Source of the DNA: Myxococcaceae bacterium
GTDB lineage: Bacteria; Myxococcota; Myxococcia; Myxococcales; Myxococcaceae
DNA length: 33,049 nucleotides
Assembly: GCA_016926755.1 (NCBI GenBank)
Contig: JAFGNZ010000062.1
Location: 1 to 33,049 of the forward strand
Reading direction: 5' to 3'
The notes below the pieces were generated by a model. The model was not told where the DNA came from and did not search any database. It worked only from the letters and a program-made list of their open reading frames with translations. How positions within the stretch are numbered: position 1 is the stretch's first letter; the number at the start of each line of letters is the position of its first letter. This document shows positions 4,040 to 10,297 of the stretch, one piece after another. The position numbers and the translations under genes are program-made.

Positions 4040-5110
4040 ATGCTCCCTATCCCCCTGCTGCTCCTCGGGCTCGCCACCGCCCCCCCGCCTGCCTCCCCCT
4101 CCACCGGGGAGCAGCTGAGGGCGCTGTGCCGCGCCCACGCCGCCGATCCGTCGAACCCCTGGGCGCTGGCCCACGGCATCACCCTGGAGGGGCGCGGCTT
4201 CCGGGCGCGGGATGGGCGGCCGGCGGCGGAGATCATCGTCTCGGGCTTCCTGCGCCGGGAGGAGCCGGGGCGCGGCCTGTACTTCGAGCCCTTCACCCCG
4301 AGCGGAGCCCCGATAGAGCCCCACCCGGCCCTCCAGGTGAAGACGCTGGTCCGGGCGGGCGTTCCCCTGGGCCGGACGTTCCGGGCCTCCTGGGGGCCGG
4401 TGACGCCGAGGGCGCTGGTGGAGGAGCTGCAGCGCGACTTCCGGCCGAGCCTGGCCACCTCGCCGGACGGCGCCTGGGCGCTGGATGCGCTGGGCCAGGT
4501 GCTCGCTCCGGGGGCGAGCTTCCGGAACGGCGCGGGGGAGACGGTCCGCTTCGACGCGGTGATGGACGAGGCGCTCGCCACCCTGGAGCGCGCCCAGGCG
4601 GAGCTGGCCGCCGGCATGAAGGCAGGGCTGTCCCAGGTGCCCAAGCAGAAGCAGGGCATCTATGCGCACCCGTGCGGGGGCCTCCACTTCTTCCAGGCCG
4701 TGGCGAGCTGGGCGCGCCACCCGTCCGTGCGCGAGGCGTGGGGCCAGCGCCTGGACACGCAGGTGGACGTGCTCGTCTACCGGCTGGGCTCGGAGGCCCG
4801 GCAGTACGAGGCCGCGCTCGCGCAGGCGCCCCAGCATCGGCTCGCGCTCCTCTCCCAGTCGCTCAAGTTCTACGGCCACTTCCTGGAGACGCTCGGGCAG
4901 TACCGGCGGGAGAACGGCTGGAGCCCCACGCCCAGGCAGCAGCAGGCGGTGACGCGCGCCCGCCAGCTGCTCGACGCCACGGTCCGCCGGCTCGGCGAGG
5001 CGGGGGCGTTCCGGGACCTGGAGCGCCTGGCGAGGCAGCAGCCCCAGCTCTACCTGGACCTCGTGGGGGACGCATGCCACGCGGCCCACGGGCTCACCCT
5101 GTGGCCATGA
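4040..5110 (+). CDS. Exported hypothetical protein
   Basis: A 356-residue protein beginning with a short hydrophobic stretch (MLPIPLLLLGLATAPPPASP) that looks like a signal peptide. The rest is soluble and mostly helical, with a probable beta-rich region at about residues 50-130 and a conserved-looking HPCGGLHFFQAV segment near 220-231. No enzyme family is recognised. There are few cysteines and no lipobox. It diverges from the acyl-CoA dehydrogenase gene, so the palindrome at 3979-3994 might influence both. Its stop is only 6 bases from the stop of the convergent acyl-AMP ligase gene. Codon use fits a real gene (strong GC3 in this frame). Confidence 0.7.
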   Translation: MLPIPLLLLGLATAPPPASPSTGEQLRALCRAHAADPSNPWALAHGITLEGRGFRARDGRPAAEIIVSGFLRREEPGRGLYFEPFTPSGAPIEPHPALQVKTLVRAGVPLGRTFRASWGPVTPRALVEELQRDFRPSLATSPDGAWALDALGQVLAPGASFRNGAGETVRFDAVMDEALATLERAQAELAAGMKAGLSQVPKQKQGIYAHPCGGLHFFQAVASWARHPSVREAWGQRLDTQVDVLVYRLGSEARQYEAALAQAPQHRLALLSQSLKFYGHFLETLGQYRRENGWSPTPRQQQAVTRARQLLDATVRRLGEAGAFRDLERLARQQPQLYLDLVGDACHAAHGLTLWP

Positions 5111-5116
5111 ACGAGG

Positions 5117-6838
5117 TCAACTCCGAATCCGCTGCAACGCCGAGCCCAGCGCCGCGCGCCCGGAGTGGAGCCAGCGGCCGCCGCGTTTCCGGACCTCGAA
5201 CAGCGAGCCGTGGAGGATCCGCTGGGCGCGCATCCGGAGCAGATCCGCGCGCAGCTCCATGGGCGTGGCGACGCGGATCCGGCCCTGCTCGTATGCCTCC
5301 GCGAGGGCCTGGCGCTGGAGCTTGCCGCTGCTCGTCTTCTGGATCTGTCCATAGCGGATGAACAGCACGTCCTCCTGCGCCACGGAGACCCCCACCGCTT
5401 CCTGGATCGCCGCGCATACCCGCTGCTGGCTCCGGGCGCGATCCTCCAGGACCGACGGGCGATGGACCTCGGCGAGCACCACCACGCGCCCCCTGACGTA
5501 GATGACCGCCGTCCTGCCAGCGCGGATGAACGGCAGGCGCTCGACGGCCTGCTCGAAGTCGCTGGAGAAGTAGCTCTGCCCGTTGATCTTGAACCGATCG
5601 TTGATGCGCCCGGTGATGAACAGCTCCCCATCCTGGAGGAAGCCCACGTCCCCCGTGGCGTAGAAGCCATCCTCGCCTCGCAGGGGACGCTCGTCCGCAT
5701 AGTATGAGGCCGCGAGGCTGCCTCCCCGGAGCTCGAGCTGCCCCAGCTCCCGCTCGCCGCAGAGCCGCCCATCCTCGGCGCGCAGCCGCACCTCGAACTC
5801 GCCCAGCGCGGGCCCGACGGAGATGGCGGGCCGCCCGTTGGGAGCGGTGACGACCCGCCCTCCTTCGGGCCCCGCGCAGGAGACCATCAGCACCGCCTCG
5901 GCCATGCCGTAGCAGGGCCGGATCGCCTGCCGCCGCAACCCCCGAGGCCCGAGCAGCTCCGTGAAGCGCTCCAGGTTCGGGATGTTGATGGGCTCGCTGC
6001 CCAGGTACACCGTCCGGAGGGCCGCCAGCTCCAGGCGCGCCAGCTCCTCCGCGTCCAGCGCTCCCAGGGTCTTCAGCGCGTAGTCGATCGCGAAGTTGGG
6101 AATGACGGCGTGGGTGTTGCGGCACTTCGACATGAACTCCAGCCAGCCCACCGGATCCATCAGGAAGCTCATGGGCTGAGCCAGGTGACAGTCGCAGCCT
6201 ACGTAGATAGCGGTCAGCAGCCCGCCCACCAGCCCCATGTCGTGGTACAGCGGCAGCCAGCTGCACACGCGGTCACTGCTCGTGAACCCATCCTGCGTGG
6301 AGATCATCCTCATGTTGGCGGACAGGTTCCCCCAGGTGATGGGCACGCCCTTCGGGAACGAAGTCGATCCCGAGGAGAACTGCACGAAGGCCAGCGCGTC
6401 CGGAGCGGGCTCGCGCAGGCGCGCCACCTCCGCCCGAGCCCCCGCGGGAGGGAGCGCCACGCGCTGCATGGGCAGCTCCACCGCGCTCAGGCTCGGCACG
6501 TCCAGGATGCGAGCGGCGCCGTGGCGCTCGGAGATCCGCGACAGGAACTCCTGGTAGGCCCGCTTCGGAGTGCTGAGGATGTAGGGCTTGACCGACAACG
6601 GCAGCGCCCCCAGCTCCAGCAGCCCGAGGAAGGAGACGATGACGGCCTCCGAGGTCTCGAACGGGAAGAGGATCCGATCCCCCGGCTGCACGCCCTGCCG
6701 CCGGAAGTGCTCCGCGCAGGAGGAGACGCGCGACGGCAGCGCTCCGTACGAGAGGAACACAGGGGCGTCAGCGAAGTCCTCGTAGAGGTACAGGCCACGC
6801 TGGGGATCGGCCGACGAGATTCGCGCGAAGAGGGACAT
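5117..6838 (-). CDS. Fatty acyl-AMP ligase (FAAL)
   Basis: A 573-residue adenylating enzyme that activates a free fatty acid as acyl-AMP and, in FAALs, hands it to the phosphopantetheine thiol of an acyl carrier protein. The ATP-binding loop FSSGSTSFPKG is at 154-164, with the SS-GST form usual in FAALs, followed by LPLYHDMGL (195-203), YGMAEA (310-315), FYATGD (392-397), the hinge segment GRINDRFKINGQ (410-421) and the C-terminal lysine in KTSSGK (Lys506). It is the last gene of a five-gene operon, 14 bases after the thioesterase stop; the operon's own carrier protein is the likely acceptor. The start at 6838 avoids a long overlap with the thioesterase; the frame stays open to 7168 only as a shadow. 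Chain length and branching of the substrate cannot be read. Confidence 0.9.
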   Translation of the reverse strand: MSLFARISSADPQRGLYLYEDFADAPVFLSYGALPSRVSSCAEHFRRQGVQPGDRILFPFETSEAVIVSFLGLLELGALPLSVKPYILSTPKRAYQEFLSRISERHGAARILDVPSLSAVELPMQRVALPPAGARAEVARLREPAPDALAFVQFSSGSTSFPKGVPITWGNLSANMRMISTQDGFTSSDRVCSWLPLYHDMGLVGGLLTAIYVGCDCHLAQPMSFLMDPVGWLEFMSKCRNTHAVIPNFAIDYALKTLGALDAEELARLELAALRTVYLGSEPINIPNLERFTELLGPRGLRRQAIRPCYGMAEAVLMVSCAGPEGGRVVTAPNGRPAISVGPALGEFEVRLRAEDGRLCGERELGQLELRGGSLAASYYADERPLRGEDGFYATGDVGFLQDGELFITGRINDRFKINGQSYFSSDFEQAVERLPFIRAGRTAVIYVRGRVVVLAEVHRPSVLEDRARSQQRVCAAIQEAVGVSVAQEDVLFIRYGQIQKTSSGKLQRQALAEAYEQGRIRVATPMELRADLLRMRAQRILHGSLFEVRKRGGRWLHSGRAALGSALQRIRS

Positions 6839-6852
6839 GGGACGCTTGCTCC

Positions 6853-7281
6853 TCAGGCCTTCTGGTTGCGAGCCGCCTCGAGGAACTCCTGCAGCGAGCT
6901 CAGGGAGCGATCCGCCCCGCGGACGAACGCCGCCTGCACGTGCGCCTCCACCGCGACCTGGCTCCCGGAGCCGACGAGGATCTTCTGGTGGAAGCAGGCC
7001 CGGTAGTGGATCGCCTCCACGTCCCCCAGCTCCTCGGCCTCCGGGGACTCGAGGTGCGTCCAGACCACCACGTCCCCTGGCGAGATCTCCTTCCGGTAGT
7101 CCACCTCGATGCGGATGGTGAGGGCGACGATGCTCCCCCCCCGGCGAAGGGAGTTCCGCTCCATCCACGCCCAGCGCCCGGCCTCCAGGTACTCCAGCGC
7201 CGTCGCGTTGTTCACGTGCCCCAGGCTGTCCAGATCATTGGGGCGCACGCGCAGCGTCAGGGAAGAGTCTTCGAAGCGCAC
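6853..7281 (-). CDS. Hotdog-fold acyl thioesterase (4-hydroxybenzoyl-CoA thioesterase family)
   Basis: A 142-residue single hotdog domain. The N-terminal signature RPNDLDSLGHVNN (13-25), with Asp18 as candidate catalytic residue, is typical of the 4HBT/YbgC/FAT-like group that hydrolyses acyl thioesters of CoA or acyl carrier proteins. The remaining pattern (VDYRKEISPGDVVVW, then alternating strands) fits the fold. It lies between the AcpS-like gene (20-base gap) and the acyl-AMP ligase gene (14-base gap). The most economical role is release of the finished acyl chain from the operon's carrier protein; CoA thioester hydrolysis is also possible. Confidence 0.85.
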   Translation of the reverse strand: MRFEDSSLTLRVRPNDLDSLGHVNNATALEYLEAGRWAWMERNSLRRGGSIVALTIRIEVDYRKEISPGDVVVWTHLESPEAEELGDVEAIHYRACFHQKILVGSGSQVAVEAHVQAAFVRGADRSLSSLQEFLEAARNQKA

Positions 7282-7301
7282 GGGTCAGCCTCCTCCGGGA
7301 A

Positions 7302-7673
7302 TCAGGCGCGGCCCGGCCCCTCGATGATCACCACCGTCGAGACGAAGCCGCCGCTATGGGAGATGGAGAGCAGCGCCTGCCATCCGTGACGCTCCATGTG
7401 CTCGCGCAGCGCGCCGTGGAAGCAGAAGCGAGGGGCGTGCCGCTCGTCATGGACGACTTCGGCGTCGGTCCAATGCCACTCCGCCAGGACCGGGAGCGCC
7501 TTGAACAGGGCCTCCTTGCTCGAGAACCCCGCGGCGAGGCTCTCCAGCGGCGAGCGGCTCTCCTGGAAGCGCGCGGTCTCCCGCTCCGTGAAGAAGGCGC
7601 CGGGCTCCCACAGCTCCTCCACGCGCGTCATCTCCTGGAGCGCCTGGAGATCATGCCCCAGGCCGATCAGCAC
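7302..7673 (-). CDS. Holo-[acyl-carrier-protein] synthase-like 4'-phosphopantetheinyl transferase
   Basis: A 123-residue enzyme, the usual AcpS length, that would transfer phosphopantetheine from CoA to a serine of a carrier protein. Motifs: a beta strand ending in GHDL with Asp8 (most AcpS proteins have G-I/V-D-L, so His7 is unusual), FFTERE (27-32), FSSKEALFKAL (50-60) with the Mg-binding Glu54 and Lys58, and a C-terminal SISHSGGF (103-110). The GTG at 7673 is chosen because it puts the GHDL strand at the N-terminus and overlaps the desaturase stop by 7 bases, a sign of translational coupling; the frame stays open further upstream only as a shadow. It probably serves the carrier protein two genes upstream. 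Confidence 0.85.
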   Translation of the reverse strand: MLIGLGHDLQALQEMTRVEELWEPGAFFTERETARFQESRSPLESLAAGFSSKEALFKALPVLAEWHWTDAEVVHDERHAPRFCFHGALREHMERHGWQALLSISHSGGFVSTVVIIEGPGRA

Positions 7674-8668
7674 CCGACCAGCTCCATCCACTGCGCCTCC
7701 ACCTCCTCGGCGGAGGCGCAGGCGATCCCCGTGATGCGCTTGAGCGCGTGCAGGATGAGCGAGCGCTTGCGCTCGAGCGCCTCGGGCGCCGCGACGGTCT
7801 GGCCCGTGCCGCCCTCGAGGTGATCCCACCAGTTGATGTGGGTGGGCCGGTACTCCACGTGCTCCCGCGCGCTGCCGTAGAGCTCGCCCCCCTCCCGCAG
7901 GAAGAAGTGCGCCACGGCGAACGCCTCCTTGGCCGGGTACGCCCCGCTGTCCACCAGCGCCTTGGCGAACGAGATGAAGTACTGCATGTGCTGCACCTCG
8001 TCGGCGCCCACGTGCTTGAGCAGCGCCTTGAGGCCGGGATCCTCGACGCGCCGCGCGTACTGGCCGTAGTTGACCGCGGCGATGCCCTCGGAGAATGACA
8101 GCATCGTCACCGTCCTCAGCAGATCATCGTCCGGGAAGATCTTCCGGTGCTCGATCACGGCGGCGTCGCTGAGCGGCTCGAAGCCCAGCATGCGCGACAG
8201 CTGGGTGAAGCCCATCTCGTGGTGGGACTCCTCCTCGTTCCAGTAGCGGCTCCAGGTGCCGAGCGACTGGATGATGGACGCCACCACATCGTCCTTGCCC
8301 AGGAAGCGCCGGCACTCCGCGTCGGTCAGCCGGGACATGCGGTCGGCGCTCGGCTTGGCCGTCATCTCCGCCCGCCCCGCGCTCCACACGACGAACCGAT
8401 CCAGCTCGGTGAGCTTCTCCAGCCGGACGGCCTCCACCAGCCGCACCGCGCTCCAGCGCCGCGCCTCGTGGAGCCGGTGCTGCTCCCACGTGATGTCCAC
8501 CAGCGTGCGGCCCTCTTCCCTGAAGGCCCGGTAGAGCTCCCGCACCACCGCGGGCCGATTCAACGGAAGCGGGCCTGCGTCGCCTCCGGCCAGCCCGGCC
8601 ACCTCGAACACGGGCCTCTCGGGTGTCGGTCCTGTCTGTGCCACGTCCCGACGGAGCGTGGCCTCCAT
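7667..8668 (-). CDS. Diiron acyl-ACP desaturase-like oxygenase (ferritin-like fold)
   Basis: A 333-residue soluble helical protein with iron ligands in the order and approximate spacing of plant-type acyl-ACP desaturases: Glu101 (RAEMTA), EEESHHE (145-151, an E-x-x-H pair), Glu194 (SFSEG) and ADEVQH (222-227, E224-x-x-H227). This predicts an O2-activating diiron centre acting on an acyl chain held by a carrier protein. The ATG at 8668 overlaps the carrier-protein stop as ATGA, so the two are probably translated together. An ATG eight codons upstream is also possible. Desaturation is the first guess; hydroxylation, acetylenic bond formation or N-oxygenation (AurF-like relatives use an extra His) cannot be excluded. 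Electron donors such as ferredoxin are not encoded nearby. Confidence 0.8.
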   Translation of the reverse strand: MEATLRRDVAQTGPTPERPVFEVAGLAGGDAGPLPLNRPAVVRELYRAFREEGRTLVDITWEQHRLHEARRWSAVRLVEAVRLEKLTELDRFVVWSAGRAEMTAKPSADRMSRLTDAECRRFLGKDDVVASIIQSLGTWSRYWNEEESHHEMGFTQLSRMLGFEPLSDAAVIEHRKIFPDDDLLRTVTMLSFSEGIAAVNYGQYARRVEDPGLKALLKHVGADEVQHMQYFISFAKALVDSGAYPAKEAFAVAHFFLREGGELYGSAREHVEYRPTHINWWDHLEGGTGQTVAAPEALERKRSLILHALKRITGIACASAEEVEAQWMELVGC

Positions 8669-8958
8669 CAAGCCGCCCTCCCCTGCTGGCACTCCTGGAG
8701 GAACAGCTCGACGACTCGCGAGATGGGCGTCTCCAGCGAGAGCGCCGGGAGCCGGACCCGGAGGCCGTACTGCTTGCGCAGCGCATTGGACGACTTCGCG
8801 AAGGCCTCCATCAGGTCGACGCTGTTGTTCACCTTCTCAGAGCGCGAGATGATCTCTGCCAGAGAGAGGTCGTCCCCGAACAGCTCGTCGAGCGTCAAAC
8901 CCACGTTCTCAGAGAACTTCCGGCAGATGAAGTCCTTCAGATCGGTGACTTCCGCCAT
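8668..8958 (-). CDS. Divergent acyl carrier protein
   Basis: A 96-residue small protein that looks like an acyl carrier protein: an acidic helix, an SVDLMEAF segment starting at Ser46 in the position of the usual D-S-L-(x)-x-V/M-E phosphopantetheine site, and a final helix (ISRVVELFLQE). The site reads NNSVDLME, so the Asp before the serine is replaced by Asn. The start at 8958 has a strong ribosome site (GGAGGAAG); the frame runs open to 9033 but without such a site. It is the first gene of the operon and shares ATGA with the desaturase gene. The AcpS-like enzyme of the same operon would add the prosthetic group, and the FAAL would load the acyl chain. Confidence 0.75.
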   Translation of the reverse strand: MAEVTDLKDFICRKFSENVGLTLDELFGDDLSLAEIISRSEKVNNSVDLMEAFAKSSNALRKQYGLRVRLPALSLETPISRVVELFLQECQQGRAA

Positions 8959-9102: not shown

Positions 9103-10275
9103 TCAGAACCCCAGTCGCGCCAGCTCCTCGGAGGTGAAGCCCGCCTCGGCGAGGATCTCGCGAGAGTGCTGACCCAGCGCGGGCGGCGGCCGCAGCGGCG
9201 TCTCCCCCAGGCGCAGCGGGGTGAGGAGATGGACTACCTTCCTTCCCCGCTGTGCGTCCTCCGCCTCCACGAAGAGGCCTCGGGCGCGGAGCTGCGGATC
9301 AGCGAGCACCTCATCCCCCTCCAGCACCGGCTCGATGCACAGGTCCGTCCCCGCGAAGCGCTGCTGCCAGTGGGCCAGGGGGTGCTCGGCGAAGATGCGG
9401 CCGAGCTCGGCCTTCACGCGCTCCGCGCCCTCGCCCATGTCATAGCCGTCCGCGAACAGATCCATCCTCCCGAGCCGCTCGCACAGGCCGGAGAAGAACT
9501 TGGGCTCCAGCGCGCCCACCGAGAGCCACCGGTCATCCTTCGTGCGGTAGAGGCCGTAGCAGGCGTAGCCGCCGTTGAGGGGCTCCTTCCCGCGCTGGAG
9601 CGGGTGCCCCTGCTCGCCCATGGCCAGCCGCGCGGCCAGGTGCATGTGGAGGAAGGCCATGGCCCCGTCCGTCATGGACACGTCCACGAAGCGGCCGCGC
9701 CCGGTGCGCTCGCGCTCGTGCAGCGCGGCGAGGATGCCCACCAGCGCGAACAGGCTCCCTCCGCCAATATCTCCCAGCTGCACGCCGGGAAAGGCGGGGG
9801 CCCCGCCCGCCGCGCCGCCGTACGCGAGCACCCCCGCGCGCGCCGCGTAGTTGAGATCGTGCCCCGCCTTGAGGCGGTCCGGCCCCGTCTGCCCGTACCC
9901 GGAGATGGCGCAGTAGATGAGGCGCGGGTTCTCCGCGCGCAGGGCCGCCTCGCCCACCCCGAGCTTGTCCATCACGCCGGGCCGGAAGCTCTCCACCAGC
10001 ACGTCGTAGCTTCGGGCCAGGCGCTTGAGCGCGTCGCGGCCCTCGGGGGACTTGAGGTTGAGCGTCAGCGAGCGCTTGTTGCGGTTGAGCCCGTAGAAGA
10101 GCGCGCTCTCGTCATCGCGCAGGGGCGGCATCTGGCGGATGTAGTCGCCGCCCTCGGGCTCCTCCACCTTGTCCACGGTGGCGCCCAGGTCCGCGAGGAC
10201 GAGCGTGGCATAGGGGCCTGGCAGCAGGCGGGAGAGATCCAGCACCTTGAGGCCGGTGAGCGGAAGCGTATTCAT
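9103..10275 (-). CDS. Family III CoA transferase, alpha-methylacyl-CoA racemase-like
   Basis: A 390-residue CaiB/BaiF family protein. The N-terminus PLTGLKVLDLSRLLPGPYAT (5-24) and SFRPG (96-100) are typical of the fold. The segment KAGHDLNY (136-143, with His139/Asp140) matches the GHD-INY active-site motif of alpha-methylacyl-CoA racemases rather than formyl-CoA transferases, so epimerisation of the 2-methyl centre of branched acyl-CoAs is the best guess, a step needed before beta-oxidation of branched or steroid side chains. The ATG at 10275 fits the family N-terminus. It lies downstream of the SCP2 gene on the same strand, 97 bases away, with a GC hairpin between them. Confidence 0.85.
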   Translation of the reverse strand: MNTLPLTGLKVLDLSRLLPGPYATLVLADLGATVDKVEEPEGGDYIRQMPPLRDDESALFYGLNRNKRSLTLNLKSPEGRDALKRLARSYDVLVESFRPGVMDKLGVGEAALRAENPRLIYCAISGYGQTGPDRLKAGHDLNYAARAGVLAYGGAAGGAPAFPGVQLGDIGGGSLFALVGILAALHERERTGRGRFVDVSMTDGAMAFLHMHLAARLAMGEQGHPLQRGKEPLNGGYACYGLYRTKDDRWLSVGALEPKFFSGLCERLGRMDLFADGYDMGEGAERVKAELGRIFAEHPLAHWQQRFAGTDLCIEPVLEGDEVLADPQLRARGLFVEAEDAQRGRKVVHLLTPLRLGETPLRPPPALGQHSREILAEAGFTSEELARLGF

Positions 10276-10297
10276 GGGAGCGGGGGGAGAGACGACA

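Follow-up and report, generated by a model that had tools for sequence, protein, structure and literature searches.

A candidate stand-alone cassette for fatty acid oxidation on a dedicated carrier protein in a Myxococcaceae bacterium

The stretch of DNA analyzed here (the window) comprises 33,049 nucleotides of contig JAFGNZ010000062.1 from a Myxococcaceae bacterium (assembly GCA_016926755.1), and is contig 85 in a genome of 409 contigs and 9.59 Mb. Its positions 5117–8958 are occupied by five minus-strand genes, which encode, from upstream, an acyl carrier protein (ACP), a soluble diiron enzyme, an AcpS-type phosphopantetheinyl transferase (PPTase), a hotdog-fold thioesterase (TE), and a fatty acyl-AMP ligase (FAAL) (Table 1). 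The diiron gene overlaps the ACP stop codon by 1 nucleotide, the AcpS gene overlaps the diiron gene by 7 nucleotides, and gaps of 20 and 14 nucleotides separate AcpS from TE and TE from FAAL, respectively. A previous sequence-only reading had described five packed or overlapping genes here with no ketosynthase among them, and this description proved accurate. The alpha/beta hydrolase gene that usually lies between the TE and FAAL genes in relatives is absent from the window. The block is flanked by genes for an acyl-CoA dehydrogenase, a coenzyme A (CoA)-transferase, an SCP2 protein, and an AMP-binding enzyme. The sequence analyses described below suggest that the five genes probably form a stand-alone cassette, in which a free fatty acid would be oxidized, most likely desaturated, on the dedicated ACP and then released.

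Table 1. Genes of the cassette and its two boundary genes in the window
Feature	Position	Strand	Basis
ACP, dedicated acyl carrier protein, 96 amino acids	8668..8958	-	Variant phosphopantetheine site NSVDLME, Ser46; carrier-like model
Diiron enzyme, soluble, ferritin-like, acyl-ACP-desaturase-like, type A paralogue, 333 amino acids	7667..8668	-	Ligand positions; DesA2 profile match
AcpS-type PPTase, 123 amino acids, GTG start	7302..7673	-	PF01648
Hotdog-fold acyl thioesterase (TE), 142 amino acids, GTG start	6853..7281	-	PF13279, PF03061
FAAL, 573 amino acids	5117..6838	-	PF00501, PF23024, 3pbk match
CoA-transferase family III, upstream boundary gene outside the cassette, conserved neighbour	9103..10278 (start chosen by the authors)	-	PF02515
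Downstream boundary gene outside the cassette, conserved neighbour, no family assigned	4040..5110	+	No Pfam match

The distribution of the cassette was examined in 195 Myxococcota genomes with an ACP profile (best 25 first-look candidates per genome scored) and a diiron profile (best 10 scored); because of these limits, copies could have been missed. The ACP profile matched 28 places in 24 genomes belonging to 4 of 90 genera. All 28 places were read in context, and the diiron gene directly follows the ACP gene in each. Three are ACP-diiron pairs without a FAAL of their own: the first of two tandem pairs in loci L021 and L023, and locus L027. The TE is present in all of the remaining 25 FAAL-bearing cassettes, AcpS in 20, and the alpha/beta hydrolase between TE and FAAL in 18; four relatives' cassettes lack both AcpS and the hydrolase. 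In one hydrolase-free cassette (L060, 5637–7732, genome G125), the FAAL was missed by the simple gene caller and found by tblastn. Thus, the earlier description of a five-gene unit holds for the window, where all five genes are real, but the unit of most relatives has the hydrolase as a sixth gene, and the ancestral unit probably comprised six genes. The relatives do keep the genes together, as the earlier reading required, with the same order recurring in 25 myxobacterial loci and on three plasmids of other phyla, and the arrangement is therefore not due to chance. The ratio of nonsynonymous to synonymous substitution rates (dN/dS) was below 1 in all comparisons made, ranging from 0 to 0.40 in like-for-like comparisons and reaching at most 0.55 among the six comparisons across paralogous cassettes (TE, window against L021; ratio of the printed dN and dS).

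The cassette is found between the CoA-transferase gene and the downstream boundary gene in 23 of the 25 FAAL-bearing cases. The same junction was read without a cassette in four genomes. The boundary genes nearly abut in three of them, being separated by 19 (G028), 34 (G020), and 39 bp (G121) as judged from match ends, which indicates a discrete block that comes or goes as one piece. The fourth (G155; L136, 2308–5100) has a different open frame of 930 amino acids with a weak PQQ_2 match, which raises the possibility that insertions occur preferentially at this junction. The boundary genes are about 110 and 130 bp apart by match coordinates in G127 and G143, and distances of about 28 kb (G013) and 35 kb (G034) were also seen. 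The genes on the flanks, with their acyl-CoA and AMP-binding enzymes, could lead one to regard the five genes as ordinary fatty acid genes of this region that share no common pathway. This explanation is largely refuted and very improbable, given the empty junctions in G028, G020, and G121 and the presence of cassettes elsewhere: on another contig in G020, on another contig in G003 (a second cassette, without AcpS), and on plasmids. A chance grouping with the flanking acyl-CoA genes was rejected on the same grounds.

A search of 72,556 plasmid records with the diiron protein identified three with a relative covering 88–89% of its length, two of them conjugative plasmids from different Nostoc strains (56% identity) and one a Xenorhabdus plasmid (53% identity). 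The same three records were retrieved with the Nostoc protein as a query, and five records, one of them from Nostoc, with a distant diiron protein from locus L028. Both Nostoc records contain ACP, diiron enzyme, AcpS, TE, and FAAL genes in the order seen in the window. The Xenorhabdus plasmid has ACP, diiron enzyme, TE, hydrolase, and FAAL genes, and a frameshifted AcpS-like sequence (L096, 12873–13142), unannotated in the record, occupies the usual place of AcpS. A single-protein scan of genome contigs gave one locus, and the distribution outside Myxococcota is therefore drawn from the plasmid collection only. The cassette is probably discrete and horizontally mobile.

The ACP had no Pfam or NCBIfam match, including PF00550 (carrier protein), and a sequence profile of 13 ACPs matched no solved structure with E ≤ 1. 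An AlphaFold model built from three sequences has a predicted local distance difference test score (pLDDT) of 87.6 and shows a helix beginning at Ser46. A Foldseek search with this model returned nothing at E ≤ 0.001 (E-values 0.3 or worse). Structural re-alignment by VIA-align yielded 50 entries, mostly carrier proteins or complexes with one, with Z values of 6.3–9.1, a range that, according to the warning of the program itself, can reflect common helical arrangements. Subject to this warning, the model is consistent with a four-helix carrier fold with the serine at the start of helix II. A phosphopantetheine site, NS(V/I)DLME, which includes Ser46, is conserved in all 31 ACP homologs (28 myxobacterial and 3 plasmid-borne). 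Most ACPs have an aspartate just before the phosphopantetheine serine, as in the DSL motif, and this position is occupied by asparagine in 31 of the 31. The earlier reading would have failed if the ACP lacked its phosphopantetheine site; the serine is retained, in a variant motif and in a protein whose model resembles known carriers. AcpS matches PF01648 with 33.7 bits (cut-off 25), and the holo-ACP synthase 2wdy among solved structures (E 3e-9). The genome of the window contains three PF01648 genes, the cassette AcpS and two others. The asparagine in place of the common aspartate at the ACP site may be the reason that an AcpS is usually included in the cassette.

The FAAL matches PF00501 with 162 bits (cut-off 29.9) and PF23024 with 32.6 bits (cut-off 27), and its nearest solved structure is that of Escherichia coli FAAL (EcFAAL; 3pbk, E 3.3e-58). 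Residues W224, P226, M231, and F279 and the helix T252–R258 of EcFAAL are reported to plug the CoA pocket (PMC8460268). The window FAAL aligned to 3pbk has the corresponding W, P, M, and F residues and the segment PMSFLMD, by our own reading of the alignment with a register shift of one, and it is thus predicted to have a plugged CoA pocket. The TE matches PF13279 (46.5 bits, cut-off 25.5) and PF03061 (30.1 bits), and a putative thioesterase of known structure, 2cye (E 1.1e-6). None of the five proteins was matched by PADLOC, so that a reading of them as defence-system proteins was rejected, and a promoter scan found no promoter.

Residues E101, E147, H150, E194, E224, and H227 are present in all 20 aligned cassette diiron proteins, in which E146 is also invariant. 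The six ligand positions (E ... ExxH ... E ... ExxH), assigned on the basis of motif rather than structure, agree with those expected of a desaturase and are also found in three distant diiron proteins. When a 16-row diiron profile that included three distant rows was compared with solved structures, DesA2 (1za0) was ranked first (E 9.6e-9), and plant acyl-ACP desaturases appeared from E 7.6e-4. DesA2 was again first (E 6.8e-5) with an 8-row profile without the distant rows. The family cut-off of PF03405 (22.7 bits) was passed by the orthologs from Nostoc (25.1) and, narrowly, from Xenorhabdus (22.8). AurF (PF11583) was absent from the Pfam matches of the window protein with E ≤ 1 and from the solved structures listed at E ≤ 1 for either profile. 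The earlier reading would have been refuted if the protein grouped with AurF-type N-oxygenases, and this identity was rejected; a distant diiron relative in L028 scored 23.7 bits against AurF, below the cut-off of 29.6. In line with the suggestion that the oxidase is ferritin-like instead of a membrane desaturase, no match to PF00487 was obtained with E ≤ 1.

The diiron protein of the window belongs to a clade of seven rows, here called type A, which has support of 100/100 and a stem of 0.72 changes per column. The copy in L027, which represents a second ACP-diiron pair in the genome of the window (66% identity), is placed outside this clade. In the alignment of 20 rows, 16 positions are fixed in the type A rows and absent from the other 13 rows, and those at 102, 104, 107, 111, 136, 183, 189, 196, and 204 lie near the ligands in sequence. 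In the FAAL tree, the window groups with four loci that have type A only (97/96). The fixed changes, the long stem, and the matching FAAL tree together imply that the product of the window enzyme may differ from the ancestral one.

Genes linked to the diiron enzyme provide a further clue to its reaction. Distant diiron relatives (OTHER; ARRANGEMENTS) were found in other FAAL clusters in four genomes, where the same enzyme classes occur in two other arrangements. L028, L099, and L100 have the order diiron-TE-ACP-FAAL with a hydrolase. L104 (6960–11969), which adds a cyclopropane synthase (CMAS), has the order ACP-CMAS-diiron-FAAL, with a hydrolase and a TE on the opposite strand; its diiron protein matches PF03405 (FA_desaturase_2) with 67.7 bits, and the cluster may encode a pathway for desaturation and cyclopropanation on a carrier of its own. 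CMAS genes also occur beside the cassette family itself. In L024 (G020), a full cassette comes directly after genes for a hydrolase, a CMAS, a membrane desaturase, and then two further hydrolases. In L027 (G000:C314, 2634–9497), a similar series without the last hydrolase, 76–86% identical to that in L024, precedes the ACP-diiron pair, which is followed by an MFS gene. In mycobacteria, the double bonds introduced by DesA1/DesA2 are reported to be required before cyclopropanation (PMC8872791). Desaturation is preferred to hydroxylation mainly because the pairing with CMAS recurs, and because mycobacterial cyclopropanation needs such double bonds.

Gene content and gene order, conservation, the ligand positions, and the carrier-like ACP model are direct observations. 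From them we infer each reaction and the sequence in which the reactions occur, the choice of desaturation over hydroxylation, and the liberation of a free acid, as follows. The cassette AcpS would convert the ACP to its holo form at the NS(V/I)DLME site. The FAAL would adenylate a free fatty acid and pass the acyl group to the ACP without CoA. The soluble diiron enzyme would then remove hydrogens from the ACP-bound chain, most likely giving a cis double bond, with electrons probably supplied by a housekeeping ferredoxin, and the hotdog TE would free the product. In most relatives, the alpha/beta hydrolase may supply or process the fatty acid; it would have been lost from the window locus. The earlier proposal of a desaturation or hydroxylation pathway is thus upheld at the level of sequence, with desaturation favored by the enzyme family and by linked genes. 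As that proposal suggested, the product may go to membrane lipids or serve as a signal. Its statement that the genes supply every step is too strong, since the cassette has no gene for an electron donor.

A number of observations weigh against this pathway. The cassette includes no electron-transfer gene, and AcpS is missing from 5 of the 25 FAAL-bearing cassettes. The diiron protein of the window scores only 18.4 bits against PF03405, under the cut-off, and it is therefore termed desaturase-like here and not filed as a family member on its own score. It also has weak EncFtn and ferritin Pfam matches, and when it was compared alone with the PDB, threonine synthase (E 0.0016, presumably by chance) outranked DesA2 (E 0.0045). 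In the 16-row profile, DesA2 is separated from the plant desaturases by a designed helix bundle, a bacterioferritin, and an encapsulated ferritin (E 4.5e-5 to 1.2e-4); in the 8-row profile, DesA2 is followed by weak ferritin-type rows and no plant desaturase. An AlphaFold model of the diiron protein from three sequences had a mean pLDDT of 42, too poor for a check of the acyl channel or for a fold search. Relative to 3pbk, the window FAAL lacks 19 alignment columns immediately downstream of YGMAE, where the FAAL-specific insertion of the N-terminal domain presumably lies; the spacing from YGMAE to SVG is 30–31 residues in all 17 cassette FAALs compared, and the shortness is thus a trait of the family. 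Finally, the long type A stem suggests that the reaction of the window enzyme may differ from that of its relatives, and the reactions open to ferritin-like diiron enzymes include hydroxylation, N-oxygenation, and cleavage.

The last point bears on an alternative in which the carrier logic is the same, with hydroxylation or some other oxygenation of the bound chain by the diiron enzyme; the product would be a hydroxy acid or a shortened acid that might act as a signal. Oxygenation is also an established activity among ferritin-like diiron proteins that have this ligand set, and the changes fixed in type A near the ligands at positions 102 to 189, with the long stem, would suit an altered reaction. 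However, among solved structures the family profiles match a desaturase best and do not list AurF, and three loci (L024, L027, and L104) contain a linked CMAS, whose family acts on double bonds. This alternative is rather unlikely, and desaturation on the dedicated ACP is preferred.

Several known systems combine a FAAL, an ACP, and an oxidase. In bacteria, double bonds are mostly introduced while the fatty acid is being synthesized or by membrane enzymes, and plants and mycobacteria provide the best-known soluble acyl-ACP desaturases. In mycobacterial meromycolate modification (DesA1/DesA2, AcpM, cyclopropane synthases, and FadD32), soluble desaturases likewise act on carrier-bound chains, with later CMAS action and a FAAL, but those genes belong to chain elongation and are not known to form a compact FAAL-ACP-AcpS-TE unit. 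The JamABC and TtuABC terminal-alkyne cassettes consist of a FAAL, a dedicated ACP, and a membrane desaturase that acts on the ACP-bound chain; the cassette described here shares the three functions, whereas its oxidase is soluble and ferritin-like, lacking the PF00487 signature of the membrane type, and AcpS, TE, and usually a hydrolase are added. The mycobactin set MbtL-MbtM-MbtN has an ACP, a FAAL, and an acyl-ACP dehydrogenating enzyme, as in the cassette, but MbtN is of the flavin type and the set is not known to include TE or AcpS. The AFC-BC11 cluster of Burkholderia has a FAAL (AfcA), a sole carrier protein (AfcK), and two putative acyl-ACP desaturases (AfcN and AfcD); it differs from the cassette in being a 25-gene lipopeptide cluster with peptide-forming enzymes, whose FAAL acylates a carrier-bound peptide (PMC12186527).

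By analogy with AFC-BC11 or JamABC, the cassette could supply a starter unit to a remote lipopeptide or polyketide pathway, the oxidized acyl-ACP being handed on and the TE having only an editing role. FAAL-ACP pairs often feed polyketide synthases (PKS) or nonribosomal peptide synthetases (NRPS). The Xenorhabdus cassette has, at a distance of about 8 kb, a 6.1-kb gene with an AMP-binding annotation. In L059, a second gene of the AMP-binding, FAAL-like kind, truncated by the end of the locus, is located about 7 kb from the ACP gene. However, no PKS or NRPS was found among seven scanned neighboring myxobacterial proteins, which are mostly large and represent part of the neighborhood (an efflux pump, a MarR regulator, a histidine kinase, a peptidase-ABC transporter, an RCC1-repeat protein, a protein kinase, and one unmatched protein). 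The Nostoc annotations show no PKS or NRPS either, and every FAAL-bearing cassette has kept its TE. Starter-unit supply therefore appears improbable, and release of the oxidized acid by the TE is retained as the preferred outcome.

A broader proposal, put forward more tentatively, is that the cassette encodes an orthogonal, horizontally transferred pathway for acyl editing. The ACP with its non-canonical site and, usually, its own AcpS would keep the fatty acid apart from the ACP of fatty acid synthase and from CoA. The differently arranged clusters would have arrived at these five functions by convergence, and duplication of the ACP-diiron pair in the Stigmatella/Hyalangium-type lineage would have given rise to type A, with a changed active-site surround and a different product. 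Among FAAL-ACP-oxidase systems, the cassette stands out for a soluble oxidase that resembles desaturases, an AcpS of its own, apparent transfer across phyla, and the repeated bringing together of one set of functions. No description of this cassette was found in the literature searched, in which coverage of subscription journals and bioRxiv preprints was limited. Stigmolone, a pheromone of Stigmatella, was considered as a product, and a literature search on its biosynthesis gave no evidence either way. If the proposed pathway is correct, the cassette would offer engineers a portable route to unusual unsaturated acids, and new lipids from myxobacteria could be obtained through it. The ACP with its variant site and the linked AcpS are a candidate orthogonal ACP/PPTase pair, and the A/B duplication would provide a natural pair for mapping regioselectivity.

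Distant relatives of the diiron protein also occur outside the cassette. The diiron profile matched 62 of the 195 genomes, namely the 24 cassette-bearing genomes and a further 38 in which all matches are distant; one other family (f5) accounts for 19 of the 38. Context was read for 10 of these 38: FAAL-ACP clusters are present in G054, G155, G133, and G034; the diiron gene accompanies an ACP and ketosynthases in G011 and lies on a 4.2-kb piece in G008; and no FAAL-ACP unit was recognized in G096, G186, G014, and G044 by comparison with the query set, although an AMP-binding-like gene is situated about 0.8 kb from the distant diiron gene in G096. No FAAL-ACP cluster was recognized at four places with a distant diiron gene (L101–L103 and L105). 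In L029 (7754–13117) and L030 (2029–3054), the diiron domain is joined to an N-terminal 4Fe-4S ferredoxin domain, and L029 adjoins an ACP gene and several ketosynthase-like genes. On a Burkholderia arboris replicon (L097, 5024–8993), a distance of 1.4 kb separates a FAAL-like AMP-binding gene, unannotated there, from a relative of the L028 diiron gene.

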